From positions 1 to 35,743 of the forward strand of contig JAEURH010000017.1 in NCBI GenBank assembly GCA_016789365.1: a stretch of 35,743 nt of DNA, read 5' to 3'. Below are positions 2,588 through 35,440 of the stretch, one piece after another. The notes beneath the pieces were generated by a model. It worked only from the letters and a program-made list of their open reading frames with translations. It did no database searches and was not told where the DNA came from. The DNA is from Anaerolineales bacterium (GTDB lineage Bacteria > Chloroflexota > Anaerolineae > Anaerolineales > Villigracilaceae). Positions within the stretch are counted from its first letter, which is position 1, and each line of letters begins with the position of its first letter. The translations under genes were made by a program, and so were the position numbers.

Positions 2588-4123
2588 ATGGCAAAAAGTA
2601 TCAAAGACGTTCCGGGCTTAGAACCAAAACCAATCGTTGGCTGGTTGGGGAATGTAGCAGGCATGTTCTCAGACCCGCTCAATGCGCTCACTGATTTGCA
2701 TAAAGAATATGGAGATGTATTAACAATCTCTCGCGGAGGGAATCCACATTTATTTTTTTCAGGTGCGGGTAAACATCACACCTTGTTTGTGTTTGGTTCA
2801 AAATACAATCATCAGCTCATGTCAAATTCAGATGTCTTTCATTCGGGTTCAATCTTAAGCACATTGTTTCCGTATGGAGAAGTAGATGCTCGGCGACGAG
2901 TCCTGCAAAAGTTAAGCATCGGCTTGTTTGGATTAAATGGCGAGACCCACCGTCGTCAGAGGCGTTTAATCATGCCTGCTTTTCACAAGCAACGACTCAA
3001 CATCTATTGTGATGATATTGTGCGAATTACAAATCAAAAATTAGATAATTGGAAAGTTGGCGAACAAATTGATATTTGGCGCGAGATGATGAATTTAACT
3101 TTGCAAATTGTGGCGCAATGTTTGTTTGGTTTGAATGCGCTGAAAGAAAGCCAAGCATTTGGTGAATTGATTCAAACGTGGATAAAGTTAGCAGTCTCAC
3201 CCGGTGTTTTGTTATTTCAATCTGATATCCCCGGCTTGCCGTATCATCGCTTTGTAAATATTTCACATGAGTTGGATTCAATAGTCCGCAACATCATCAA
3301 TCAAATCCGTCCGACTTCTGAAAAAAATGTAGATGTGCTTTCGTTAATGCTTTCTGCAAAAGATGAAAATGGGGAGCCTGCATTTACAGATGATGAAATT
3401 GTTGGGCATAGTGCTATCTTTTTTACAGCGGGACATGAAACCAGTTCCAACGCCTTAGCATGGACTTTCTTTTTACTTTCTCAACATCCACATGTGATGG
3501 AAAAACTGCGCCTCGAAATTGACCGCGTACTTGGTTCTGCTCCCCCAAGTATTGACCATCTGAAAGCAATGCCTTACTTAGATGCAATCGTAAAAGAAAG
3601 TTTAAGGTTAATGCCACCTGCTCCTTTGAGTGCGCGTATGGTTGCAGAACCTGTAGAAGTTGGTGGTTATGAATTACCCGTTGGCACAGAAGTTGTTTTC
3701 AGTGCGTTTCATACACATCGCGATTCATCTATCTATGAAAATCCCCATCAATTTATTCCTGAACGTTGGGAGACTATCAACCCCACTGCTTATGAATACA
3801 TCCCATTCAGTACAGGCATTCGTTCTTGTGTTGGAATGCCACTGGCTCTTATGGAAATCCCAATTATTATTGCCATGGTTTTTCAAAAATTCCGCCTCGA
3901 ATTATCCTCAAACGCGAATGTGATTCCGCATATTGGTCTTACCATGTCACCTAAACATGGAATGCCGATGATAGTTCAACCAAGAGACAATAATTACAAT
4001 GCAGGTGTTGGCAATGTAAAAGGAAGTATTCACAAGTATATAGATTTAAAACCTATAAACCAATTCGTCATTGCGAGGAGCACGAGCCTCAAACGGCAAA
4101 TGCACGACGAAGCAATCTTATGA
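2588..4123 (+). CDS. Cytochrome P450 monooxygenase
   Basis: A soluble bacterial P450 of 511 residues, with no N-terminal membrane anchor. Key motifs: I-helix AGHETSS (281-287), K-helix ESLR (337-340), PERW (391-394) and the heme loop FSTGIRSCVG (407-416) with axial Cys414. The substrate is not readable from sequence. Its position, convergent with the diterpene synthase operon ending at 4180, makes a diterpenoid plausible, but it is on the other strand and has its own upstream region (TATAAT 2554-2559; SD GGAG at 2576-2579), so this is inference. The catalytic domain ends by about residue 467. The last 18 residues (VIARSTSLKRQMHDEAIL) are encoded by the left arm of a dispersed palindromic repeat that supplies the stop codon, so the C-terminus is probably a late, non-functional addition. 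Confidence 0.93.
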   Translation: MAKSIKDVPGLEPKPIVGWLGNVAGMFSDPLNALTDLHKEYGDVLTISRGGNPHLFFSGAGKHHTLFVFGSKYNHQLMSNSDVFHSGSILSTLFPYGEVDARRRVLQKLSIGLFGLNGETHRRQRRLIMPAFHKQRLNIYCDDIVRITNQKLDNWKVGEQIDIWREMMNLTLQIVAQCLFGLNALKESQAFGELIQTWIKLAVSPGVLLFQSDIPGLPYHRFVNISHELDSIVRNIINQIRPTSEKNVDVLSLMLSAKDENGEPAFTDDEIVGHSAIFFTAGHETSSNALAWTFFLLSQHPHVMEKLRLEIDRVLGSAPPSIDHLKAMPYLDAIVKESLRLMPPAPLSARMVAEPVEVGGYELPVGTEVVFSAFHTHRDSSIYENPHQFIPERWETINPTAYEYIPFSTGIRSCVGMPLALMEIPIIIAMVFQKFRLELSSNANVIPHIGLTMSPKHGMPMIVQPRDNNYNAGVGNVKGSIHKYIDLKPINQFVIARSTSLKRQMHDEAIL

Positions 4124-4179: not shown

Positions 4180-4542
4180 TTAAGCATTTAAGAATCTAGA
4201 TGTAAGGTCTCGTAATTGCGCAAAAGAGATGGGTTTCACCAATACAATGCTTGCCATGCCTCGATAAAATTCTGCTTGCACACTATCTGCAGTGGCAATA
4301 ATAATGCGTGAATTTTTTAATTTATCGTTAGCATGAATTTGTTTTAACAAAGTTGCTCCATTGACATGCGGCAAGTGCATATCAAGCAAAATAATTTTCG
4401 GCACCACTTGAGTCAAACGTTCTTCGGCAACTTTGCCATCTAAAATTGCTTCTACCTTATAGCCCGCGGCGTGAAGCGCGTTGGTAAAAATATCAGAGAG
4501 GTCTTCATCGTCTTCAATTATCAATGCTAAATTTTCTGTCAT
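4180..4542 (-). CDS. Single-domain response regulator (CheY/Spo0F-like receiver)
   Basis: A 120-residue stand-alone receiver domain with no output domain. Conserved residues are all present: acidic pair D11-D12 (IIEDDED), phospho-acceptor D54 in ILLDMHLP, T84 in IIIATAD, and K103 in LVKPI. Its start overlaps the stop of the preceding histidine kinase gene (TAATG), so the two are translationally coupled and the kinase is its probable partner. Without a DNA-binding domain it cannot regulate transcription directly; it may act by protein contact or in a phosphorelay. It is the last gene of the diterpene operon. Confidence 0.92.
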   Translation of the reverse strand: MTENLALIIEDDEDLSDIFTNALHAAGYKVEAILDGKVAEERLTQVVPKIILLDMHLPHVNGATLLKQIHANDKLKNSRIIIATADSVQAEFYRGMASIVLVKPISFAQLRDLTSRFLNA

Positions 4543-6245
4543 TATGCACCTTTCATTTCTTTGAGTAGAGGTAACACGACTGTAAACGTACTGCCTTTTC
4601 CAACCCCACTGGTTACTTGAATTTCACCATTCATTAATTCTACTAACTGTTTTACGATGGATAAACCTAAACCAATCCCGCCATATTGACGAGTGGTAAA
4701 TTCCAAATTGTTTGCCTGACGAAACGCATCAAACACGAAGGGGAGTTCGTTTTCTGGTATCCCCACACCTGTATCTTTAACCTCAATCTTCCAATGCTCT
4801 TTCCCAACACGATTCAAAGAGACTGTAATCGAGCCCATCTCTGTAAACTTAAGCGCATTGCTGGTGAGGTTAATCATAATTTGCTGTAAGCGTTGCGAGT
4901 CACCGATTAACTCCTCAGGCATCTCATCACCAATGGTTGTGATAAATTCCAAGCCTTTATCGGTCACTGCTTTATCCATGGCAACACGCAAATTTTCTAA
5001 GAGAGAAGCTGTCTTAATCGCTTCTGGTCTCACGGTCAATTTACCTGCACGGATTTGTGCTTCGTTTAACAAATCACCAACCATGCTAAGCAAACGAGAA
5101 ACATTCACCATCACCCGTTGCGTCACTGACAATTGCTTCTCATTCAAAGGACCATGAACTTCTTCTTTCAAAATTTCCGCATGACCCATAATCGCATTCA
5201 ATGGCGTTCTCAATTCATGTGAAACAACCGCCACAAAGTTATCTTTCATTTTTTCAACTTGTGCTTCTTGTGTAATATCACGGAACACAGCCACAGAACC
5301 AATCGTTTCATGCGTTTGAGAATCATGCACATCTGCAACGCTAGCTGAGAGCACTTTATCACCCCATTCCACACGTGGCGTAATTTCTGAATGCTCTGAT
5401 TTTTGAATCAATCTTTTGATAGATTGCTGACTGGTTTGGGGAATATTTCTTAATTGAACAAAATTATCTAACGAGATTCCATGTAGGGTTTGTAGTGGAA
5501 TTTCAGTAAGTTGACTCAAAGCAGGGTTTGCCAATGTAGCAACATGTTGTTTATCAAACACAATTACGCCATCTGCAATTGAATTAAGAATGGCTTGGTT
5601 ACGACCTGATTCAATGCGTTCACGGGTTAAGGCATCTGCGAGTTCATTCGTACGTTCAATAACAATTTTGTCGAGGTTGGTATTAATCGTACGCAAATCT
5701 TTAAGCGCTGATTGCAAACCGCTGGATGACATCCAAGAGATTAATGCCACCAGAAAATAACTTAACATGGCGGTCACATTTGGCGATTCGTTGATTGAAA
5801 TCGCGAAGATGTAAATGATGATTGAACCTAATGTGGCAAATAAAAAAGTAGAGGTTGCCTGCAAGATTAAACTCGCCATTACAATCGGAATCATAAACAC
5901 AAATAATGAACGTCCATTGGCAATTTGTTGTGGCGTGTCGCTGAAACTAACGACCAGCATCACAACGCCTAGAAAAATATAAGAAGATAAACTTCCTTCT
6001 CGTGTACGATTCAGCCAATAAATTCCCGTCATGCTAAGGAGCATGAAAATACTAGCCAGACCGATAAACAAGTTATCTTGCGGGTCAATATTATTTAAGT
6101 TGAAGAGCGAGATAGGAATCTGAATAATTAGCAACACCGCCATTCCCAGAATGATGATGTTGAGATTTCTTCTTCTACGGGCATCATCTGGGTCAGGCGA
6201 TGAAACTTCGATGAAATTTTGAATCCAAGTAGTTATGGTTTTCAA
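4542..6245 (-). CDS. Membrane-bound PAS sensor histidine kinase
   Basis: A 567-residue kinase. Residues about 28-175 hold roughly six hydrophobic segments (a MASE-like sensor with short loops), then a coiled linker (about 180-215), a PAS domain (about 215-325, ending VAVFRDIT), HisKA with H343 in VSHELRTPLN, and HATPase_c with NLTSNALKF, DTGVGIPENE and GGIGLGLSIV. The TTG start at 6245 overlaps the cyclase stop (TTGA); GGA lies 8 nt upstream, and no ATG lies nearby. Overlaps on both sides place it firmly between the diterpene cyclase and the receiver gene. The ligand is unknown; its presence in a lipid-biosynthetic operon suggests it may sense a membrane lipid or product (inference). Confidence 0.92.
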   Translation of the reverse strand: MKTITTWIQNFIEVSSPDPDDARRRRNLNIIILGMAVLLIIQIPISLFNLNNIDPQDNLFIGLASIFMLLSMTGIYWLNRTREGSLSSYIFLGVVMLVVSFSDTPQQIANGRSLFVFMIPIVMASLILQATSTFLFATLGSIIIYIFAISINESPNVTAMLSYFLVALISWMSSSGLQSALKDLRTINTNLDKIVIERTNELADALTRERIESGRNQAILNSIADGVIVFDKQHVATLANPALSQLTEIPLQTLHGISLDNFVQLRNIPQTSQQSIKRLIQKSEHSEITPRVEWGDKVLSASVADVHDSQTHETIGSVAVFRDITQEAQVEKMKDNFVAVVSHELRTPLNAIMGHAEILKEEVHGPLNEKQLSVTQRVMVNVSRLLSMVGDLLNEAQIRAGKLTVRPEAIKTASLLENLRVAMDKAVTDKGLEFITTIGDEMPEELIGDSQRLQQIMINLTSNALKFTEMGSITVSLNRVGKEHWKIEVKDTGVGIPENELPFVFDAFRQANNLEFTTRQYGGIGLGLSIVKQLVELMNGEIQVTSGVGKGSTFTVVLPLLKEMKGA

Positions 6246-7714
6246 ATTTGTTTTCCGAGCGTTAAAGCACTTGCCACAGCCGAGCGAATCACAATCTGCG
6301 GGCTATACAGGCATTTCCCAATCCATAACGGGGGATAAGGCTTGTGTGAATTTGCTTCAAGCCACTCGACTCCTTTCTTAATGACCTTGCTGTCAATTCT
6401 ACCTGCGCTTTGGTTCCACACCCATAACGCTTGCATTGCATAAGCGGTCTCTTCGGCGGTGCCCATGTAAGTGCCCCAAGCACCATCGGGGTGTTGGCTG
6501 GCGAGTAGCCAATCTACAGAATCGGTTACTAAGTCATTGTCATAGCCTGCACAAGCAATGATGGCATGGCAGGTGGTGTAATATGGCGAGGAATGCCATT
6601 TATCTAACCAAAACTTGCTATTGCCTTTGACTCGTTTCAAAAAGCCAAGTGCTTTTTGCACAGATGGATGTTCGCTTTTATAACCTGCTTGTCGCAACGC
6701 ACCTACCACATGAATGTTTGCACTAATAGATGTGTTCGCTTCTAATGGATAGCATCGGAAATATTCTTCTTCTTCATACCCTAAAATGCTTTCAACATCT
6801 TTTTTATAACCGTATTGATAGAGTGTATCGAACACCAAACTGGTCATGTCGCTATCTTTGACGGAGTATTGTGTAGCAAACCCAATGCCGAGGTTAGGTA
6901 TCCAAGCATCCGAAAGCGTATCAAGCAGACGCGTAATGTGAGGCGTGGCTTCAAAATCAGGTATCATTTTTAGATTCCATAACGTCCACGAAATTTCAAA
7001 CGCATCAAAAGAAGCAACATTTGGGAAGCCACCATCTTCTTTGACATTATTTGCAAGATATTCAAACGCGCGTTGATTGTTTGGATTCACATACAAAGAA
7101 TAATACGCAGTTGCTGATGGGCTGTGACCAATAGAGCCATTTGGTTCTTGCAAATTTTCAATATCGAGCATATGCAAACCATCTTCACCAGCAATTTCAG
7201 CAGAGAACGCCATTGTGGTTTTGCGGTTGATTAAACTTCCTTTGATTTTAGAAAGTTTCAATTTTCGTAATTCATCTAACGAGTTTAAGATTTTATCTCC
7301 GTGTTGTTTGATAATGCCCAAAGATTGCGCTTCAGCGACTAAGGTCGGGATGAGCATTTCAAACCCAATTGTTACTTTGTTGGAATCATTTAGCACATCT
7401 TTGGTTACGCCATTAACAATATTTTCTAAGGCTTTTACGCCACGTTCTACTTGCTTCTTGTTAAGAGTAGGATTATGTTTTGTCAACGCAATCATGGCGG
7501 ATAACGTAGAGATAACGCGGTCGTAATAGTTGATTGGAAATTCTGCACCCCAAGACCCATCTGAAAGTTGATGCGTATTTAACCAATCTAAGGCACCTTC
7601 TGCAAGCGAAGGCTCTAATTCTGACAACCTTGCACCCCAAGCAGTGTCGTATGCTGTGCTGGGCATTTTGCCCGGTCCGATGTTTTCAATGAGGTCGTTG
7701 ATGATTGTGTTCAT
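6242..7714 (-). CDS. Class II diterpene cyclase, Rv3377c / copalyl diphosphate synthase-like
   Basis: A 490-residue alpha-barrel terpene cyclase, close in length to mycobacterial Rv3377c (about 500). The class II diterpene signature PSTAYDTAWGARL (residues 18-30) is clear, as are QW-type repeats (LSDGSWG 50-56, HPDGAWG 408-414), NTSISANIHVVGAL (327-340) and DKWHSSPYY (371-379). Class II enzymes protonate geranylgeranyl diphosphate to a bicyclic diphosphate (halimane, clerodane or labdane type). The proton-donor motif DXDD reads D287-S-D289-M290: the middle catalytic Asp is kept and the fourth position is Met. No class I DDXXD is seen, so diphosphate removal must fall to a partner, and the adjacent gene (27 bp upstream) encodes one. 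Which skeleton is made cannot be told. Confidence 0.9.
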   Translation of the reverse strand: MNTIINDLIENIGPGKMPSTAYDTAWGARLSELEPSLAEGALDWLNTHQLSDGSWGAEFPINYYDRVISTLSAMIALTKHNPTLNKKQVERGVKALENIVNGVTKDVLNDSNKVTIGFEMLIPTLVAEAQSLGIIKQHGDKILNSLDELRKLKLSKIKGSLINRKTTMAFSAEIAGEDGLHMLDIENLQEPNGSIGHSPSATAYYSLYVNPNNQRAFEYLANNVKEDGGFPNVASFDAFEISWTLWNLKMIPDFEATPHITRLLDTLSDAWIPNLGIGFATQYSVKDSDMTSLVFDTLYQYGYKKDVESILGYEEEEYFRCYPLEANTSISANIHVVGALRQAGYKSEHPSVQKALGFLKRVKGNSKFWLDKWHSSPYYTTCHAIIACAGYDNDLVTDSVDWLLASQHPDGAWGTYMGTAEETAYAMQALWVWNQSAGRIDSKVIKKGVEWLEANSHKPYPPLWIGKCLYSPQIVIRSAVASALTLGKQI

Positions 7715-7741
7715 GATGTTTTCTTTCTTCTATGATGTTGG

Positions 7742-8644
7742 TCAGATAGATGGAAGCCAGATATCCGATTTCAAATTTCCTGTGCCTAGCACAGTATCTT
7801 GATGGGTTTGATAAAAATTCTTTAACTCTGCAAATGTTTCAGGTTGCAGAGCGAGATAATCTGGCTCTTCTGCTCGTCTTGTATATAAATGGTCGTACAA
7901 AATAGAGCGTAATTGCTTTTCATTCATATACAATGACGGTGCAATTGTGAAGTACAAATCTTCGCCGCCCCATCTTAAGAATGGATAATCAAATACAGAC
8001 AGGCGGTCGAAACCGATAAAAATATCGGCTTTTTCAACATATTCACCATAATAATTTTCGACAATCGTATTTCTGGATGGCACCTCGCCTTTCTTTTGAA
8101 AATAATCCACTGCTGTTTTGGCAGTTTGTTCATCGGCTTTGCGTTCATCTGCAAAGACTCCAAAAAATAATCTTGCGCGTTGATGATGAAGCGTTTTTTT
8201 AGTTAACTCATCAAACAACTGCACAATGTTTTCATACGGTGTTTTTGTTAACGCATTGCGATAATCTCCATAAAAACGAACGCGCACATTGCTTTCTTCA
8301 TAAAAAGATAAAAAGTCAGCACGTGTGGCAATGCTTGCCAAACCTTCGGCACCAATTTTTTCCATATAGTCATCGCGTGTTTCTAACACTTCCGCACCGA
8401 TGACAGGTGTAATTAACGTATCGACACCATGGTCAAAAAATAATTTGTAAAGTTCAATATGTTTTTTGATGACAATATCGGTGTATGCTTCAATAGGGTT
8501 ATCAAATTTTTTATTTCCATGTTCCAACATGAACCAACGTCTGGTTCCATTAATCGGAAAGACAACCACTTTTGAACCACTTGCTTTAACAAGTTTTGCA
8601 ACTTCTGGTGTAGATAATTTGAGAAATTCTGTTAATGAAATCAT
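7742..8644 (-). CDS. Rv3378c-like diterpene synthase (tuberculosinol / kolavelool synthase family)
   Basis: A 300-residue protein strongly similar, from memory of the family, to M. tuberculosis Rv3378c (about 296 residues). Shared segments include VFPINGTRRWFMLE (Rv3378c VFPFDGTRRWF), FYGDYRNAL, ENYYGEYVEKADIFIGF, and LYFTIAPSLYMNEKQLRSILYDHLY. Rv3378c has a cis-prenyltransferase fold; it takes the bicyclic diphosphate from Rv3377c and releases an allylic alcohol or transfers it to adenosine. A Herpetosiphon homologue makes kolavelool. The residue equivalent to Rv3378c Asp34 is Asn here (AAT codon). I place the start at ATG 8644, 4 nt after an AAAGGA SD; an in-frame TTG at 8662 would add six residues. 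The product must depend on the neighbouring cyclase. Confidence 0.9.
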   Translation of the reverse strand: MISLTEFLKLSTPEVAKLVKASGSKVVVFPINGTRRWFMLEHGNKKFDNPIEAYTDIVIKKHIELYKLFFDHGVDTLITPVIGAEVLETRDDYMEKIGAEGLASIATRADFLSFYEESNVRVRFYGDYRNALTKTPYENIVQLFDELTKKTLHHQRARLFFGVFADERKADEQTAKTAVDYFQKKGEVPSRNTIVENYYGEYVEKADIFIGFDRLSVFDYPFLRWGGEDLYFTIAPSLYMNEKQLRSILYDHLYTRRAEEPDYLALQPETFAELKNFYQTHQDTVLGTGNLKSDIWLPSI

Positions 8645-8690
8645 GTTTTCCTTTGGCTTCAATGAAATTGATATAGGAAATTAAATTAAT

Positions 8691-8716
8691 AATTCCCCTC
8701 TACTTAAAGAGGAATT
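8691..8716 (-). other. Inverted repeat between operon genes
   Basis: AATTCCCCTCT and AGAGGAATT can pair around a 6-nt loop, overlapping the stop codon of the upstream membrane-protein gene. It could stabilise or attenuate the transcript between the first and second operon genes; there is no T run, so a full terminator is unlikely. Confidence 0.35.
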
Positions 8717-9275
8717 CTTTGAGAGGAGTAATCCAACTCCCAGTGATAAATGTAATTAAGACATAAACTAAACTTAATACAGGTGCATCAAATGTAAGAT
8801 GTGAAACTTGATAAGGAAGAAACGTTTTTATTTTTTCTTTTGATTGTAAAAATGCAATTATAAAAACAGCCGCACAACCCAAAAAAGCAATACCATATCC
8901 AGCAGTTGTTCCGATACAAAACATTGCCAACAAAATTGGAATAAGATATGCCGCCGATGCTGATGTGGCGATTCCATAACCGAGCATGTTTGCTAAATTT
9001 AATAACAACATCAATGCGATTAAAATCCACGCCGCTATTCTGACCTGACTGTTAAGTGCTAACCAAACGCATCCTGCTAGCCCCAGCATGATTCCGAGCA
9101 TAGCAAAAATTGTTTTTATGGTTTCAAAACTTTTCGTCACCAGCCAATACACAACCAACAAAACCATCGCGCCACTAATCGCAAGCGACGTGATAATCAC
9201 TACCATTGCAGATGCCTGGTCGAAAAGTGAGTAGGATGAGGGCAGGAGACTGGTTATTTGATTGATGAAAAACAA
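8700..9275 (-). CDS. Six-TM integral membrane protein of unknown function (orphan sensor-like module)
   Basis: A 191-residue, very hydrophobic protein with about six membrane segments (approx. 22-46, 56-75, 79-97, 104-122, 125-142, 160-182) and almost no soluble part. The layout resembles the membrane N-terminus of Chloroflexota histidine kinases, such as the one encoded downstream, but no kinase domain follows. The start is TTG at 9275, supported by AAGGA 6 nt upstream; the next ATG would remove the first 23 residues. It is the first gene of the diterpene operon, 55 bp before the Rv3378c-like gene. A role in sensing, export or membrane anchoring of the product is possible, but I recognise no named family. 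Confidence 0.75.
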   Translation of the reverse strand: MFFINQITSLLPSSYSLFDQASAMVVIITSLAISGAMVLLVVYWLVTKSFETIKTIFAMLGIMLGLAGCVWLALNSQVRIAAWILIALMLLLNLANMLGYGIATSASAAYLIPILLAMFCIGTTAGYGIAFLGCAAVFIIAFLQSKEKIKTFLPYQVSHLTFDAPVLSLVYVLITFITGSWITPLKEFLFK

Positions 9276-9532: not shown

Positions 9533-10204
9533 TTAAATTTTGTTTACCTCATAAGGAAACCCATTAATTACAAACCCTCCTCTACTAGTCTCAATTTTTA
9601 GAGAAACTGACAAGAGCCTAGCAGGCACACCAGAATTTGGATACCAAATGCGGTTTTCAACAGGCAAAATCAGCAAACCTTCCTCGTCACCAATCGGGGT
9701 GAAGTTTTCGTTGAACTCTTGTCTGTAAACATCTACGCCAAATGTTGAACATAAATCTTTTGCAAACGAAATCACATCTTGTGAAGGCAATCCAATTTCG
9801 CTAACTTGTAAAATATGTTTACTATTGAATGACTCATTGGTTGCATTCTTTTGGTCGTGACGGGCAATAAACTCCAAAATATTGCCTGCTGAATCTTTGA
9901 AATAAATGGAAGATGAATTCCATGCATCGCCTGTAAATTCATCATTGCCTTTTTCATCTTTTAGTAAAGGGATTTTGGTTGAAGTCCATTGTTTACATTC
10001 ATTAAATTTATTTTCGGGGATGTTAAAACAGAAATGATACGCTCCATCAAAATCATTTTGTTCTTTGAAAATCAATTGCGTTTTGCCTGCTTGAATGTGT
10101 AATGAGTCGCCATCAAGTTGAGCAGGCAAGGCTAGCAGTGAAGTATAAAATTCTTTTTGAGCAAACAGGTTGGAGGTCAAAAGAGTGAGGCGGGTGATAA
10201 GCAT
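9533..10204 (-). CDS. VOC-superfamily (glyoxalase/bleomycin-resistance fold) protein
   Basis: A 223-residue protein with two vicinal-oxygen-chelate modules. The first (residues about 1-115) starts MLITRLTLLTSNLFAQKEFYTSLL and ends with the diagnostic IYFKDSAGNILEFIAR; the second starts at about 130 (ILQVSEIGLPSQDVISFAKDL). VOC proteins use a metal held by His/Glu/Gln for isomerase, lyase or dioxygenase reactions, or bind drugs. E113 of LEFI is a candidate metal ligand. The substrate is unknown. It is 32 bp from the DNA methyltransferase gene on the same strand, so the two may share a transcript. Confidence 0.8.
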   Translation of the reverse strand: MLITRLTLLTSNLFAQKEFYTSLLALPAQLDGDSLHIQAGKTQLIFKEQNDFDGAYHFCFNIPENKFNECKQWTSTKIPLLKDEKGNDEFTGDAWNSSSIYFKDSAGNILEFIARHDQKNATNESFNSKHILQVSEIGLPSQDVISFAKDLCSTFGVDVYRQEFNENFTPIGDEEGLLILPVENRIWYPNSGVPARLLSVSLKIETSRGGFVINGFPYEVNKI

Positions 10205-10236
10205 AAGTTTTTCAGGTCAATGTCACATGCGGGTTC

Positions 10237-11019
10237 TTAATCTTTTTGTAAAGCAGATGTCAAATCAACGGCTCGTTTTTTAGAAAGCATGCAATATTTT
10301 TTATCAATATCTATCCCCACGCCTTTTCGTTGATTTAATGCGGCTGATATGATTGTTGAACCGCTTCCGCTGAATGGGTCTAGGATGGTATCTTCGACAT
10401 AACTAAATAGTTTGATACAACGCCTCGGCAACTCAAGTGGAAATGGTGCTGGATGACCGACCTTTTTTTTGCTTTCGCCGTTGAACGTCCACACGCCGTT
10501 GGTCCATTCCATGAATTCATCACGTTCAATGTCTGAGATTTTGCTTCCGCTAGTTTTTTTCCAATTCTTTTTATACAAAATCAAAATCAATTCTACAGGT
10601 GCAATGACGAATGGTGCTGATGCGCTCTTCCATGAACCCCATGCTGTTCTTCGAGATATATTGCCTTCATTCCAAATCACTGTGGAATGATATTGAAAGC
10701 CGATTTGTTTTGCTATCGTTGTAATATCTGCGCCAACGCTTTGTTGACCACCTTTATTTTTATCGAGTGGAACGTTCAAACAAAAACGCCCATCGTCTTT
10801 GAGCCAGTCAAAACAACGAGACATCCATTTTTCACTGAACTCAAGATAATCCGCATAAGATAAGTCATCTTTATGGGAATTGTAAGCAATATCAACGTTA
10901 TAAGGAGGCGATGTAACAATTAGGTCAATGCTTTCGTTTTCGACCAACTTTGTAGTGATGACATCATCATTGATAATTTTGATTTGATTATTTTCAAAGA
11001 ACACGCTCGGTTTTTTCAT
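10237..11019 (-). CDS. Site-specific DNA methyltransferase (beta class, N4-cytosine or N6-adenine), orphan
   Basis: A 260-residue amino-methyltransferase. Catalytic motif IV TSPPYNV comes near the N-terminus and the SAM-binding motif I DPFSGSGST near the C-terminus, the order that defines the beta class. The middle part (WNEGNISRRTAWGSW, APVELILILYKK) is also typical. TSPPY occurs in both N4-cytosine and N6-adenine enzymes. No restriction endonuclease gene is adjacent: neighbours are a VOC protein and, divergently, an EamA transporter. So it is a solitary methylase, of the kind that serves regulation or protection from other restriction systems. The target sequence cannot be read. Confidence 0.9.
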   Translation of the reverse strand: MKKPSVFFENNQIKIINDDVITTKLVENESIDLIVTSPPYNVDIAYNSHKDDLSYADYLEFSEKWMSRCFDWLKDDGRFCLNVPLDKNKGGQQSVGADITTIAKQIGFQYHSTVIWNEGNISRRTAWGSWKSASAPFVIAPVELILILYKKNWKKTSGSKISDIERDEFMEWTNGVWTFNGESKKKVGHPAPFPLELPRRCIKLFSYVEDTILDPFSGSGSTIISAALNQRKGVGIDIDKKYCMLSKKRAVDLTSALQKD

Positions 11020-30056: not shown

Positions 30057-32045
30057 TTAATGACGTGCTTCACTTTCATGCACATGATAAGGCACATTCG
30101 TAATGACAATACCATGTTGAAGTTTTAATTGGTCGCGCAAAATGGTTGCAGTGTTGGTATGCAACGCGCCAGTAAGTTTGTTATCAGAAACAAATTCTGG
30201 CACAACAATCGTAATCGTTTCACCGGGTTGGCGTTGTTCAGCAATATCAGAAATATATTTCAATAAAGGTTCAACAAACAAACGATACGGCGAATCTAAA
30301 ATGACCAAGCGTGTGCCTTCACCCCATGTTTCCCATTTCTTGCGGGTTTTCTCGGCATCTTCTGGTTCAATGGTGACGTGAACCGCAGTGACATCGCTAG
30401 ATAACATGCGTGCATAACGAAGCGCAGATAATGTACCTTGATGCACACCACTGACTGGCATAATGACACGATGGCGTATCGTTTGCGGCGGAATTACACC
30501 AAAATTTTCAAGTGAAAGTTGTTTTGCTAATTTATTGTAATGACGATGAATCATCCAAAGAACTGCAACCAACAAAGGAATCAAAATCATAACGATATAT
30601 GCGCCATCTTTGAATTTTGTGATTGCAAAGACCACCATCACAACGGCAGTACATAATGCACCAAATCCATTTAGCGCCATTTTCAATTTCCAAGCAGGGT
30701 CATACTGTAACGTAGAATAGTCGCCTGTTGTTTTTACATCAGGTGAAAGTTTTCCGCTTCGCCACCAACGAATTGCCATGCCCGATTGTGCAATCGTAAA
30801 AGATAAAAATACGCCAATGGCATACAGTGGAATTAATCTTGTTACACTGGCTTGAAACAGAATAATCAAAACAGCGGATAAAAATGCCAAAGCAATCACA
30901 CCGCGTGAGTAAACCAGTCTGCTACCGCGATAAGTCAATTGACGTGGCGCGAAGCCATCTTTCGCCATTAATGCACTCAAACGTGGGAAACCTGCAAAAG
31001 CAGTATTGGCGGCAAGCATTAAGATAACGGTTGTGCCTAAAATTGCGGCACCATAAAAAATGTTTTGCCCACCAAATGCAGTTCTGGCAATTTGTGAAAT
31101 CACTGTTTCATATTCAGACGGAATGGCTTGAATATGCGTGGCAAGGAATGAAATGCCCAAGAAAACGGTTAACAGAATGGAAGCCATCCAAGTTAATGTA
31201 ATGGCGGCATTTTTACTGCGTGGTTCTTTGAAAGCAGTAATGCCAGTTGAAATTGCTTCAATTCCTGTCAATGCCGCGGTGCCACTGGAAAAGGCGTGTA
31301 AAATCAAAAACGGTGTGATGATAGCAACGGTATCATGCAAGTGAATCATTTCAGGCGGGTTTGTCACTGTGCCTAATGAGCCAGTAAAATATTTGAATAT
31401 GCCTACGCCAAGTGTAACGAACATGATAAAAATAAAGAAAAAGTTCGGAGCAATAATTATCGCGCCTGTTTCTCGTAAGCCGCGTAAATTCAAAATGGTG
31501 ATTAAGAATACAGCCGCAACCGAAGCCGCTACACGATATTCATAAACAATGGGGAAGGCAGAAGAGATTTGGGCGATGCCAGAGGATATTGAAACAGAAA
31601 CAACTAGCACATAGTCCATGAGAAGCGATGAGGCGGCAATCAAAGCGGGGAATTCACCCAAATTATCTTTTGCTACGATATATCCACCGCCACCTTGTGG
31701 ATATGCAAAAATCACTTGGCGATATGAAGCCGCCACAATCACCAACAATGCACCAATCGCAATGGAAATTGGAAACACATATTGAAATCCAGACATCCCT
31801 GCAATTGCAAGGATAACTAAAATTTCTTGGGTAGCATACGCATTTGATGACAATGCATCCGACGCGAAGACTGCTAAGCCAACGCGCTTGCCAATCGTTT
31901 CATGTGCCGCATCCGCTGTGGATAATGGTCGCCCAATTAACCATGAGCGAAATGTGCGACGAGGCTTGTAATCTGTACTTCTTTCAATAATGGGAGTTTG
32001 TTTTTTTTCTTGATTAATCATGCTTACCAACTGCCATACAGGCAA
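30057..32045 (-). CDS. KimA-like potassium/APC-superfamily permease
   Basis: A permease of 662 residues with about 12 TM helices (approx. 60-490) and a C-terminal cytoplasmic domain. The N-terminus FRSWLIGRPLSTADAAHETIGKRVGLAVFASDALSSNAYATQEIL is characteristic of KimA (YdaO) high-affinity K+ importers. The C-terminal part (about 515-660: HRVIMPVSGVHQGTLSALRYAR) resembles a USP-like domain. In B. subtilis KimA is controlled by c-di-AMP. Two TrkA/RCK genes follow on the same transcript, which argues for K+ as substrate. The TTG start (32045) has AGGG 8 nt upstream; ATG 32021 is the alternative start, 8 codons in, but lacks a good SD. A small hairpin can cover the SD. Confidence 0.88.
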   Translation of the reverse strand: MPVWQLVSMINQEKKQTPIIERSTDYKPRRTFRSWLIGRPLSTADAAHETIGKRVGLAVFASDALSSNAYATQEILVILAIAGMSGFQYVFPISIAIGALLVIVAASYRQVIFAYPQGGGGYIVAKDNLGEFPALIAASSLLMDYVLVVSVSISSGIAQISSAFPIVYEYRVAASVAAVFLITILNLRGLRETGAIIIAPNFFFIFIMFVTLGVGIFKYFTGSLGTVTNPPEMIHLHDTVAIITPFLILHAFSSGTAALTGIEAISTGITAFKEPRSKNAAITLTWMASILLTVFLGISFLATHIQAIPSEYETVISQIARTAFGGQNIFYGAAILGTTVILMLAANTAFAGFPRLSALMAKDGFAPRQLTYRGSRLVYSRGVIALAFLSAVLIILFQASVTRLIPLYAIGVFLSFTIAQSGMAIRWWRSGKLSPDVKTTGDYSTLQYDPAWKLKMALNGFGALCTAVVMVVFAITKFKDGAYIVMILIPLLVAVLWMIHRHYNKLAKQLSLENFGVIPPQTIRHRVIMPVSGVHQGTLSALRYARMLSSDVTAVHVTIEPEDAEKTRKKWETWGEGTRLVILDSPYRLFVEPLLKYISDIAEQRQPGETITIVVPEFVSDNKLTGALHTNTATILRDQLKLQHGIVITNVPYHVHESEARH

Positions 32046-32085
32046 AAATTATGCCCTTCCCGCGGAAGGACAAGTTTGGATTATA
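32046..32085 (-). promoter_or_regulatory. Promoter and SD-masking hairpin of the potassium-uptake operon
   Basis: Minus-strand TATAAT (32085-32080) marks a likely promoter inside the 101-bp gap after the kinase gene. The leader then forms CCTTCC-GCG-GGAAGG (32070-32056), whose 3' arm contains the SD for the TTG start. The gap is too short for a ydaO-type c-di-AMP riboswitch. Confidence 0.45.
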
Positions 32086-32146
32086 TTACTATTTTTATTT
32101 TTTGGGTTTGCAGTCACTTAAGAGGTGTAGACAAGATAACAGATTT

Positions 32147-35100
32147 TTATTTCAATTCATTTGGTTGTGTCAAAGGAATTTGCAAATAAAAAGTACTGCC
32201 TTTTCCAATTTCGCTTTCTACCCATATTTTTCCGCGATGACTTTCTGCAATCGAATGTACGATTGCCAACCCTAAACCAGAGCCAGGTTGAGCGCGTGCT
32301 TCGCGTTGTTTGCCGCGATAAAATTTTTCAAATAAACGTGGCAAATCTTCTGATGGAATTCCGATACCAGAATCTTTGACCACGAAAGTTAAATGACTCG
32401 GTTCAGAAATTGTGCGGATAATAACGCTTCCATTTTCTGGCGTATATTTGATTGCGTTTTCAACCAAGTTATACACTGCCTGATGCAAAAGTGCTTGGTC
32501 GGCTTCTATGGCATGGGGCATATCTTTTGCTAATTCCAATTGCAAAGAAATATTTTTTTGCATGGCTTGTAAGTGCAAAGCACTGGTAACACGTTCAATT
32601 ACATCTAACACGGTTACATTTTCTACTTGCAAACCTACACCAATTTCAATGCGACCTAAATCTAATAAATTATTCACCAAGCGAGACATATTCTCAACGC
32701 CTGAAATAATTTTCTTAATATAACCTTGTTGTTGTTCGTTCAACTCACCTGCTGAATCTAACATGGTGGCATAGCCACGCATCAAGGTTAATGGTGAACG
32801 CAAGTCGTGACTGACTGTTGCCACAAATTCAGATTTCATCGTATCCAATTCTTTGAAGTGCGTCACATCACGCATAATGCACACACGCCCGATTTGTTTG
32901 CCTTCTACCATCACTGGCGAGGCAGTTGCAAAATAAGTGCGTTTATCTGCTAATACAATTTCAGCCGATTGTTTTTCAGAAGTTGTACTTTGCAATAAAT
33001 TAACCAACGGTTTAAGTTTGATAACTTTTTCTGTTTCAACACGAGAACGAGCATCATCATCCACTTTTGGTCCGAGTGCTTCTGCCGCGGCAAAGTTTGC
33101 TAACAACAGACGATTGCGATGGTCTGTGACCAGCACGGGGTCTGGCGTGGAGTTAAGAATCGCTTCCAGTTGGCGGCGACTAGCCTCCACGTTAAGAAAG
33201 AGATGCGCATTTGCAATTGCCAAAGCCGCTTGCCCAGCCAGAGTCGTCACAAAGCGCACATCTGAATCAGAAAATTTTCGCGGCTGTTCATAACCTGCCC
33301 ACACCACGCCATAATAACGATTTTCATGGCGTAACGCCACTGCTAACAAAGCCAATGGTTGCGGCTTGGTTGGGTCTAAATCAATTTCGCGTGAGCGCGT
33401 GAGATTCGGTAAAACAATTTTTTGCTGGCTTTGCGCTAACTGTAAAATTTGTTCATCAAAATGCGCGTACAACTCACCTGCATCACCCAATGCAAAACGT
33501 GAAGGTAACTCAACATAAGTATCGGGCAAAATTTCTGGTGATAACGCCACGCGCACAGAATTTGCACCTGTTGAAAGAATTGCTTCTAACACAGGTTTGA
33601 CAGCATCTTGCATTTCTAAACTAGATGCTACACCTTGACTCACTTGTAACAAACGATTAATTTCTTCCAAACGTGATTGCAGACTAGAACGCATCTGCTC
33701 GAACGCCCGCCTGAGTTGTGCAACCTCATCTTCGCCTTTCACTTGAAGCGGATGGTCTAACTGACCTTGTGCAATACGATTGGCTTCTGCCGCCAAACTT
33801 TGCAAAGAACCAGTTACAACTCTTAAGCCCACACGCAATGAAATCATTGCTATCACTGCCAGCACAATAATCATCACTGCTAATGGCATGGCAATATTTA
33901 ATGCAATTTGTTGTGCGCGTTGGGCAGGGACTTTTAACACAATCGCCCACGGACGACCAAACACAGGTTGGTAATACACCATTTCGCGCGTGCCGTCTGG
34001 GGCGGTATCATCATAGAAAAATGCTTCGCTTCTTTGTTGACCATTATATGGAGACAAAGATTGTGTTTTGTCAGAATGATATAACACGCGGTTGTTTTCA
34101 TTCAACAACATACCAGAGCCATCAAGGTCGTTCATGTTATTGAGGCTATCAATTAATGGCAGAGTTAACGGATTTGATTCAAGTGAAGTGCGCCCGATTA
34201 AGATTCGTTCCACCTGACCCGTAGAATCCACAATAGCAACCAAAAACGAAACACGCGCGCTTTCTTCGGTTGTGGTTGGCGGAATGGAATAAATTTGAGT
34301 CAACACGCCGTTGGTGGCTAAGAAAATCCCCGAATCTTCATCTGGATACAAACGAAATGTATTCGCATCAGAAGATGGGTAAATTGCTAATATATCTTTA
34401 TTATTGGCATCTAATACAATGAATTGGTCAAAATACGGCACGGCTTGAATGCGCGAACCAATAATTGACCGTAACTCATCATTGGTGGCAGTTAGCAAAC
34501 GCGGGTCTGAGGCAAGTTGCACCGCCAAGTTTTGACCCGTCTCCAAAAAGAAAGGCACACTTTGCGAAGCCGATTTACCCGCACTGGATAATCTATCTTC
34601 TAACAATTCACGCGCGGCACGCCCTGCCACCACCCAGTCACCGATTAATAAAGTGAGCAATAACAATAAAATAAATGCACCAACTGCGAATAAAAAGCGT
34701 GCCTCTAAACTTTTTTCACCCGGCGAAGGTTGTAAGGCTTGTTTACTTCCCCAACGTGCCGGGAATGCAATCGAAATAATTTGTGCAAACAAACCGCCAA
34801 TCAACATTTCGCCACCAAAAGCCAATGTGACAATGCCTAAATTGCTTAATGCAAAATCTAAACGTGCTGTAATCGGTGTAGCATCTACGCCCCATTGTGT
34901 AAATAATGCACTCAATACATAAAACAAAGCGTGAATTGGAATCAATAACAACGCCCCCACCAATGGCTGACGTAATAATGTATATGCACGCGTTCTGTAA
35001 CTTTGGCGCATATTGATAGAAAACCATGTTGCCAAAATTGCAAGTTCTAAAATGGAGAATAAAGAATAGCTATCCCATGCGCCGCGTAACAAACCAGCGA

Positions 35101-35440
35101 ATGCCCCCAAGAATGCCGCTGGAATCGGTCCCAACATGCCTCCGCCAATTAGCCATGGAATGGCAGAAAAAATCATCAAGGCAGAACCGGGCGCATCCGC
35201 AGGCAGACCAGGTAGAGGTCGGGCTGAAGCGGAAGCAAATCTTAAACCGATAAATAAAGTTGTGGCGGGAATCAAAACGAAAAATAATATAAATAATCCC
35301 CAACTCATTTGTGTATGTGCGCGTTGCCGAAGCAAAATGAAAATCAAAGCCGCTAATAACAAAACCCATACCACCCAGCCCGCCGGTGTGGGCGACGCGG
35401 GAAATGGGATGCCTGCGAGGAGCGTGACGATGAATTCCAT
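32147..35440 (-). CDS. Large multi-domain sensor histidine kinase
   Basis: A kinase of 1097 residues. N-terminal part with six or more TM helices (about 1-235, MASE-like), another TM helix (about 250-272), an extracellular Cache-like domain (about 275-525), a TM helix, HAMP (about 550-605), GAF (about 615-765), PAS (about 770-875), HisKA with VSHDLRSPLTLMRGY and HATPase_c (NLVENAIKY, DSGIGIPSEDLPRLF, GSGLGLAIV). No response regulator gene adjoins it. It is upstream of and co-directional with the KimA-TrkA genes, so it may share some transcription and sense envelope, turgor or ion status (inference). ATG 35440 lies after an A/T-rich leader. Confidence 0.93.
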   Translation of the reverse strand: MEFIVTLLAGIPFPASPTPAGWVVWVLLLAALIFILLRQRAHTQMSWGLFILFFVLIPATTLFIGLRFASASARPLPGLPADAPGSALMIFSAIPWLIGGGMLGPIPAAFLGAFAGLLRGAWDSYSLFSILELAILATWFSINMRQSYRTRAYTLLRQPLVGALLLIPIHALFYVLSALFTQWGVDATPITARLDFALSNLGIVTLAFGGEMLIGGLFAQIISIAFPARWGSKQALQPSPGEKSLEARFLFAVGAFILLLLLTLLIGDWVVAGRAARELLEDRLSSAGKSASQSVPFFLETGQNLAVQLASDPRLLTATNDELRSIIGSRIQAVPYFDQFIVLDANNKDILAIYPSSDANTFRLYPDEDSGIFLATNGVLTQIYSIPPTTTEESARVSFLVAIVDSTGQVERILIGRTSLESNPLTLPLIDSLNNMNDLDGSGMLLNENNRVLYHSDKTQSLSPYNGQQRSEAFFYDDTAPDGTREMVYYQPVFGRPWAIVLKVPAQRAQQIALNIAMPLAVMIIVLAVIAMISLRVGLRVVTGSLQSLAAEANRIAQGQLDHPLQVKGEDEVAQLRRAFEQMRSSLQSRLEEINRLLQVSQGVASSLEMQDAVKPVLEAILSTGANSVRVALSPEILPDTYVELPSRFALGDAGELYAHFDEQILQLAQSQQKIVLPNLTRSREIDLDPTKPQPLALLAVALRHENRYYGVVWAGYEQPRKFSDSDVRFVTTLAGQAALAIANAHLFLNVEASRRQLEAILNSTPDPVLVTDHRNRLLLANFAAAEALGPKVDDDARSRVETEKVIKLKPLVNLLQSTTSEKQSAEIVLADKRTYFATASPVMVEGKQIGRVCIMRDVTHFKELDTMKSEFVATVSHDLRSPLTLMRGYATMLDSAGELNEQQQGYIKKIISGVENMSRLVNNLLDLGRIEIGVGLQVENVTVLDVIERVTSALHLQAMQKNISLQLELAKDMPHAIEADQALLHQAVYNLVENAIKYTPENGSVIIRTISEPSHLTFVVKDSGIGIPSEDLPRLFEKFYRGKQREARAQPGSGLGLAIVHSIAESHRGKIWVESEIGKGSTFYLQIPLTQPNELK

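Follow-up and report, generated by a model that had tools for sequence, protein, structure and literature searches.

An operon of Anaerolineales joins diterpene enzymes to a membrane kinase and a receiver and may form a production-and-sensing cassette

Results

Two diterpene enzymes and a two-component system in one operon

The 35,743-nucleotide contig JAEURH010000017.1 from an Anaerolineales bacterium (hereafter the window, meaning this whole stretch of DNA), whose named relatives are MAG-271, UBA2317, and OLB14, carries five minus-strand genes at positions 4180-9275. They encode a protein with six transmembrane segments (6-TM), a transferase/synthase resembling Rv3378c of Mycobacterium tuberculosis, a class II cyclase resembling Rv3377c, a 6-TM/PAS histidine kinase, and a receiver-only regulator. 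All five genes of the first-pass annotation, made from the sequence alone, are present (Table 1), and the overlaps that it described can be read directly at the junctions: TTGA joins the cyclase stop to the kinase start and TAATG joins the kinase stop to the receiver start. The gaps among the four core genes, from the transferase to the receiver, are 27 nt or overlaps. The annotated length of the transferase also stands, but its start is most likely the ATG, which has AAAGGA ahead of it, and not the TTG at 8662. Because a hairpin lies between them, the 6-TM gene may be partly uncoupled from the transferase gene.

Table 1 Features of the diterpene operon and its convergent neighbor in the window
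Feature	Position	Strand	Description
6-TM protein	8700..9275	-	191 aa, TTG start, no Pfam family; distant likeness to the kinase's sensor domain
Hairpin between 6-TM gene and transferase gene	8691..8716	-	11 pairs; weak terminator-like or attenuator; consensus match only
Rv3378c-like diterpenyl transferase/synthase	7742..8644	-	300 aa from ATG at 8644; PDB 3wqm/3wqk
Rv3377c-like class II diterpene cyclase	6242..7714	-	490 aa; PDB 6vpt E 1.9e-132
Acid motif DSDMT in cyclase	6842..6856	-	central Asp of DxDD-type motif retained
Membrane histidine kinase	4542..6245	-	567 aa: 6-TM sensor, PAS, HisKA, HATPase_c; H, N, G boxes intact
6-TM sensor domain and linker of kinase	5613..6188	-	weak MASE6 similarity below cut-off
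Receiver-only response regulator	4180..4542	-	120 aa; phospho-acceptor Asp and Lys present
Cytochrome P450, convergent neighbor	2588..4123	+	PF00067 E 3.9e-83

The annotation had staked its proposal on a match of the putative transferase to the Rv3378c family, and that match is strong: in phmmer searches against Rv3378c structures the protein scores 246 bits (E 5.8e-72), with full-length matches to 3wqm and 3wqk (E 5.8e-72 to 8e-72, residues 6-303) and 42.3% identity to Rv3378c. We take the Asp and two Arg of the xGTRR motif to be functional residues of Rv3378c-type enzymes. In the window protein (xGTRRW) both Arg are kept and the Asp of Rv3378c is replaced by Asn; across the alignment, both Arg occur in 63/63 rows and the Asp in 3/63. 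Adenosine transfer and release of the product as an alcohol are both candidate activities for this enzyme.

The assignment of the cyclase is likewise borne out, as the structure 6vpt scores 446 bits compared with 134 bits for the next one, a plant ent-copalyl diphosphate synthase (CPS), and the protein is 44.7% identical to Rv3377c. DxD is kept in 52/53 aligned cyclases. The window cyclase has Tyr at the Y479 position and Gly at the A475 position; following the logic given in the available part of PMC9814783, these residues make a halimane- or clerodane-type product plausible. Two polyprenyl synthases (PF00348 genes), encoded in the source genome on other contigs than the operon, could supply the substrate, geranylgeranyl diphosphate (GGPP). 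In another genome, G492 (genomes are labeled by G-numbers and Chloroflexota families by f-numbers), there are two tandem cyclase genes (L098:10380-13427), one of which has DGLNT replacing DxD and may be without the acid residue.

The signaling pair is likewise as annotated, with HisKA (9.5e-18), HATPase_c (5.1e-31), and a weak PAS match in the kinase and Response_reg (1.2e-16) in the receiver. Catalytic residues are kept in both proteins, judged by motifs that we presume to be diagnostic. In the domain scan of the window proteins, the receiver shows no further domain above the cut-off and no DNA-binding domain; direct control of transcription by the receiver is unlikely for this reason.

The N-terminal domain of the kinase has six hydrophobic peaks. 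Among 20 aligned sensors there are 13 invariant positions, including D84, G92, S94, P101, and W152, and some of the 13 lie in the linker. The domain is built like the MASE-type sensors, with a multi-TM N-terminus ahead of signaling domains; it differs in its linkage to diterpene enzymes and in falling below the Pfam cut-off for MASE6 (20.5 bits for row 1 of the alignment vs 27.4), to which 6/20 sensors show similarity at E<=0.1. Within its own genome the sensor is specific: a search with the single sequence gives one match at E<=0.01, the window kinase sensor alone, and a search with the sensor profile adds a second, weak place (28.5 vs 261 bits). An AlphaFold2 model of the sensor built from three sequences was discarded because its mean predicted local distance difference test (pLDDT) score was 46.6.

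The core is conserved in the family

A transferase homologue is found in 53/152 genomes of the window's family, corresponding to 37/88 good-quality genomes and 16/26 genera. We took the neighborhoods of all 53 genomes and called genes by profiles on stop-to-stop frames. The annotation had also made its case depend on recurrence of the order synthase-cyclase-kinase-receiver in relatives. Indeed, this order is kept across the family, with the four-gene core in 42-43 of the 44 loci that have at least 4.6 kb downstream: the cyclase comes next in 42, and a kinase with the family sensor and a receiver are each present in 43. G504 has no cyclase, kinase, or receiver, and G514 is missing only the cyclase. 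Of the nine shorter loci, G013 has all genes, G025 and G467 have the cyclase and sensor up to the contig end, G419 has the kinase and receiver without the cyclase, and G500, from the genus of G504, has none of them in 1.8 kb. At the other four (G011, G486, G531, G468) the contig ends at once; the cyclase, kinase, and receiver of G011 and G468, and the kinase and receiver of G486, are found on another contig.

The kinase pair thus persists in G419 and G514, where the cyclase is missing (L066:1421-3036 and L121:9833-11485, respectively). The transferase of these cyclase-less cassettes may use linear GGPP or an imported diphosphate.

Spacing is operon-like throughout the family. In 45 loci, the gap falls within -10 to +60 nt for 44 cyclase-kinase, 42 kinase-receiver, and 38 transferase-cyclase junctions, with starts taken nearest the preceding stop, a choice that favors small gaps. 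The pairing of kinase and receiver is supported by G310, in which the two are fused as one protein. Among the receiver frames of the 45 loci, 38 are at most 152 aa and six span 175-207 aa from stop to stop; the remaining frame belongs to the fused kinase.

Upstream, the partners are more varied: 49 loci with at least 3.2 kb of upstream sequence contain FemAB-like proteins (31), ICMT/PEMT-like methyltransferases (20), sulfotransferases (10), and the 6-TM protein (5). The cytochrome P450 lies convergent beside the receiver in 4/4 members of the window's clade, where it is a possible tailoring enzyme. Because the downstream order is constant while the upstream partners and the P450 vary by lineage, we conclude that the core is kept as its surroundings change.

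The sensor and the transferase also occur in the same genomes. With the sensor threshold at >=186 bits and up to 21 candidates scored per genome, 50 of the 152 family genomes have both, 3 the transferase only, 4 the sensor only, and 95 neither (Fisher 1.5e-31, not corrected for kinship). Distance correlations with the cyclase are 0.64 for the sensor, 0.50 for the kinase, and 0.38 for the receiver. We considered co-evolution of sensor and cyclase and rejected it: the correlation falls off along the operon, so it is no evidence of co-adaptation. Second sensor copies in G525, G526, and G528, next to a membrane protein that looked prenol-kinase-like by eye, were also dropped, as the G525 protein has no Pfam match.

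Other Chloroflexota pair the enzymes with other outputs

Among 400 Chloroflexota genomes, family members included, the transferase is found in 24 and the cyclase in 43 (the latter at E 1e-10). We examined 35 loci outside the family, comprising 14 transferase loci, G070:C36, and 20 further cyclase loci; those of G196, G255, G376, and G418 were left out. A signaling protein is adjacent, meaning encoded by the neighboring gene or by another in one gene run with the enzyme, in 31/35 loci with either enzyme, two of the 31 being cut by contig ends, and each of the twelve outside families examined has at least one such locus. Contig ends prevent a judgment at G070:C39 and G239. Histidine kinases are found in G041, G070:C36, seven Herpetosiphon-type loci, G096, G241, G083, G288 (two frames), G209, G068, and G252; GGDEF or GGDEF/HD proteins in G223, G161, G076, and G247; multi-TM STAS proteins in G070a, G128:C252, three G362 loci, G119:C98, G405, G301, and G432; and multi-TM starts truncated where the contig ends in G411 and G201. 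Kinase or 6-TM/STAS profiles match 65/216 open reading frames within 1 kb of the enzymes vs 1/283 beyond 5 kb, and 20/86 vs 0/62 when the count is limited to the outside loci. Proteins of this kind were the source of the profiles, and the loci share ancestry, making these statistics a guide only.

One of these loci is the characterized kolavelool locus of Herpetosiphon aurantiacus (Haur_2145-Haur_2146, G167), where a 6-TM hybrid kinase and a receiver are encoded directly upstream of the cyclase, transferase, and methyltransferase genes. It shares with the window the two enzyme families and the phylum; it differs in that the cyclase comes first, the kinase carries two receiver domains of its own, and a methyltransferase follows. 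Herpetosiphon-type enzymes are 24-27% (transferase) and 28% (cyclase) identical to the M. tuberculosis pair. The linkage of a signaling pair to the enzymes, which the annotation had presented as new here, therefore holds, but it is not new to this contig: the Herpetosiphon locus and eleven further Chloroflexota families have adjacent signaling proteins. The available parts of PMC4902038 and PMC5704754 make no mention of a kinase or receiver beside the kolavelool genes, and we found no report of a linkage between diterpene enzymes and a sensor in the titles and abstract openings of the open-access literature or in passages of PMC3470408, PMC7587436, PMC3087520, PMC5704754, and PMC11748557.

The partner enzymes and the output domains are both exchanged. 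The scanned loci of f30, f39, f59, f61, and f73 have a class I terpene synthase (Terpene_syn_C_2) near the cyclase in place of the Rv3378c-like enzyme. Kinases of f26, f30, f61, and f73 have N-termini that match those of the f39 GGDEF proteins (independent E-values from 2.5e-6 to 1.5e-27); the G128:C252 STAS protein likewise resembles the window kinase in its N-terminus (4e-5). When 17 genomes were searched with the f39 sensor, 15 had a match. In 13 of them the best match is next to the cyclase, both being on one contig; the exceptions are G239, where the best match and the cyclase are on different contigs and a contig end truncates the cyclase, and G252, where the best match is elsewhere. G068 and G196 had no match in this search, and several of the genomes have weaker extra copies. 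Sensors that stay beside the enzymes while their outputs change are expected if what they detect is made by those enzymes.

Using hhalign, we compared the family sensor profile with other membrane domains. It matches the upstream 6-TM protein at 88.6% over 158 columns, the N-terminus of the Herpetosiphon kinase at 96.5% over 173 columns, and the N-terminus of a G070 STAS protein at 99.96%; the STAS proteins of G362 and G119 reach 11% over 181 columns and the G411 protein 10%. Controls (the ICMT profile and three multi-TM proteins) give at most 0.07%. Against sensors other than the family profile, the upstream 6-TM protein scores at most 4.1%.

The f35 genome G070, with 8% contamination, has eight sensor matches (L067, L183-L188). 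Seven were taken, of which one belongs to a STAS protein and the other six to kinases, including a kinase that adjoins a cyclase. A distant Rv3378c-like clade in G130 (L068:4695-10792) and G070 (L069:211-4069), 26-30% identical to the window's enzyme or Rv3378c, adjoins genes that look large and ATPase-like by eye and is without a cyclase or sensor.

Relation to the M. tuberculosis locus

The closest characterized enzymes to those of the window are those of the M. tuberculosis Rv3378c-Rv3377c locus, which yields the virulence lipid 1-tuberculosinyladenosine and where the transferase is likewise upstream of the cyclase. Identities to family members reach 48.8% (Rv3378c with G384) and 54.5% (Rv3377c with G463). 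Unlike the window operon, no kinase or receiver is named with the Rv pair in the part of PMC11476799 available, which describes the locus as constitutively expressed without strong regulation. The same source names a HAD protein, Rv3376, as a neighbor of the pair; in parallel, HAD-family hydrolases stand between cyclase and transferase at two distant Chloroflexota loci (L227:2947-3627 and L075:9161-9844).

In separate trees, the Rv pair is placed among the family, with support of 97/100 in a 15-row group for 63 transferases, where the M. tuberculosis row is flagged as a long branch, and of 95/89 with G463, G025, and G033 for 53 cyclases. A tree of 48 combined rows, in which the full outgroup was reduced to 3 distant rows, joins the pair to the same three genomes (99/100). 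We do not claim that the pair is nested in the family, as the approximately unbiased (AU) test does not reject a single clade of the family without the pair (p 0.331 for the transferase, 0.122 for the cyclase, 0.17 combined). By sequence, this Anaerolineales family is the closest relative that we found of the M. tuberculosis pair, and it has the same gene order.

Homologues outside mycobacteria are not new in themselves, because PMC9814783, in the part available, reports 126 'terrabacterial' members of the Rv3377c subfamily. PMC11476799 reports having found no Rv3377c/Rv3378c orthologues outside mycobacteria and, from base composition, proposes plant-associated plasmids as the source. We found no transferase homologue in 72,556 plasmid records at E 1e-5, where the best-ranked cyclase is 30.8% identical to the window's, and no homologue in 50,697 phage records. 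Because the search was confined to Chloroflexota genomes and plasmid and phage records, a closer source of the mycobacterial pair may exist.

Two further regions of the window lie apart from the operon. At 9533-11019, a 223-aa protein without a Pfam match, with weak Fos-like NCBIfam scores, adjoins a DNA methyltransferase gene (PF01555), and at 30057-35440 a large histidine kinase with HAMP, GAF, and PAS domains adjoins an amino-acid permease gene.

Discussion

The operon may be a diterpenoid production-and-sensing cassette. The class II cyclase would convert GGPP to a bicyclic diphosphate of the halimane or clerodane type, and the Rv3378c-like enzyme would replace the diphosphate with water or attach the diterpenyl group to an acceptor; neighboring FemAB-like, ICMT-like, sulfotransferase, or P450 enzymes would tailor the product, depending on lineage. 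The kinase would perceive the lipophilic product, or the resulting membrane state, through its 6-TM domain and phosphorylate the stand-alone receiver, which would pass the signal on by protein contact or phosphorelay. We give this reading, in which a diterpenoid pathway has its own membrane sensor for the product or for the membrane state arising from it, about an even chance of being right. A receiver-only regulator and swapped output domains are the reasons that we favor sensing of the product or pathway over direct control of transcription. The annotation had suggested that the bacterium either regulates its diterpenoid by membrane signaling or uses it as the signal; either may be so.

Several observations weigh against product sensing. 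Product, ligand, and phosphotransfer are all putative. G500 and G504 hold the transferase alone. Conversely, a strong sensor is found without the transferase in four family genomes (G007, G104, G517, G539), in two of which, G007 and G104, there is a kinase-receiver pair with neither enzyme, so the sensor can serve without the product. The distance correlations also fit plain linkage along the operon. Outside the family, G070b and G119:C61 have no signaling neighbor, nor does the distant paralogue G130b. The sensors themselves are diverse: comparisons among the 6-TM protein and the domains of Herpetosiphon and G070 give only 0.1-4%, and several sensor groups match each other at 2-5% or less. 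In Herpetosiphon-type genomes, none of the family-profile matches listed among the 8 candidates scored per genome is at the diterpene locus; because these matches lie elsewhere, the Herpetosiphon sensor can be called similar in general build rather than the same domain.

Ranking second, and rather unlikely in our view, is that the two-component pair controls production or use of the diterpenoid in response to another cue, such as envelope stress, redox, or a partner organism, with the receiver acting by way of a DNA-binding regulator whose gene lies elsewhere. Biosynthetic clusters often include pathway-linked two-component systems, and the kinase has a PAS domain. Yet the window receiver is without a DNA-binding domain and most family receiver frames are at most 152 aa (38/45), and at other cyclase loci the outputs are GGDEF/HD and STAS domains, the GGDEF/HD domains being carried on kinase-related sensors. 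Alternatively, the diterpenoid could be an abundant membrane component, with the sensor watching the physical state of the membrane in a homeostasis loop without a specific ligand. A sensor of six hydrophobic segments and little else would suit this role, as would ICMT/PEMT-like and FemAB-like neighbors that fit lipid or envelope modification, but the 13 invariant positions, despite some being in the linker, suggest a site more than they do a general gauge of the membrane, and we consider such a loop improbable.

The adjacency could also be historical, one old arrangement inherited without functional meaning. The family loci do share one ancestor, so that their counts are not independent events, but the core persists while its flanks change, the distributions of sensor and transferase coincide, and other families have other outputs beside the same enzymes; we regard this explanation as very improbable.

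Comparison with comQXPA of Bacillus is instructive. As described in the part of PMC4008528 available, that system likewise has an isoprenoid-handling enzyme, a multi-TM kinase, and a regulator side by side on one strand. The window operon differs in having no peptide precursor gene and enzymes that are not ComQ-like: its proteins include no match to PF00348 (ComQ), its core genes, spaced by 27 nt or overlapping, leave no comX pre-peptide gene, and its regulator is a receiver only, with no DNA-binding domain. Signaling by the window operon is a prediction from its genes. In a more speculative and doubtful extension of product sensing, cyclic diterpenoids would serve Chloroflexota as signals between cells or to the producing cell itself. 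The cassette would then be the terpenoid equivalent of comQXPA, its multi-TM sensors acting as receptors and its outputs (kinase/receiver, GGDEF/HD, STAS) being interchangeable, and the tuberculosis locus would descend from such a cassette minus its sensor. Loss of the sensor pair would fit constitutive expression in M. tuberculosis.

The family enzymes bear on the open question of where the mycobacterial pair came from, set against the plant-plasmid proposal in the available text of PMC11476799. If the diterpenoid-signal idea were true, the virulence lipid would have its origin in a bacterial signal. Should the sensor indeed read the product, these loci would represent a phylum-wide receptor system for diterpenoids, for which the cultured relative H. 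aurantiacus offers test material.

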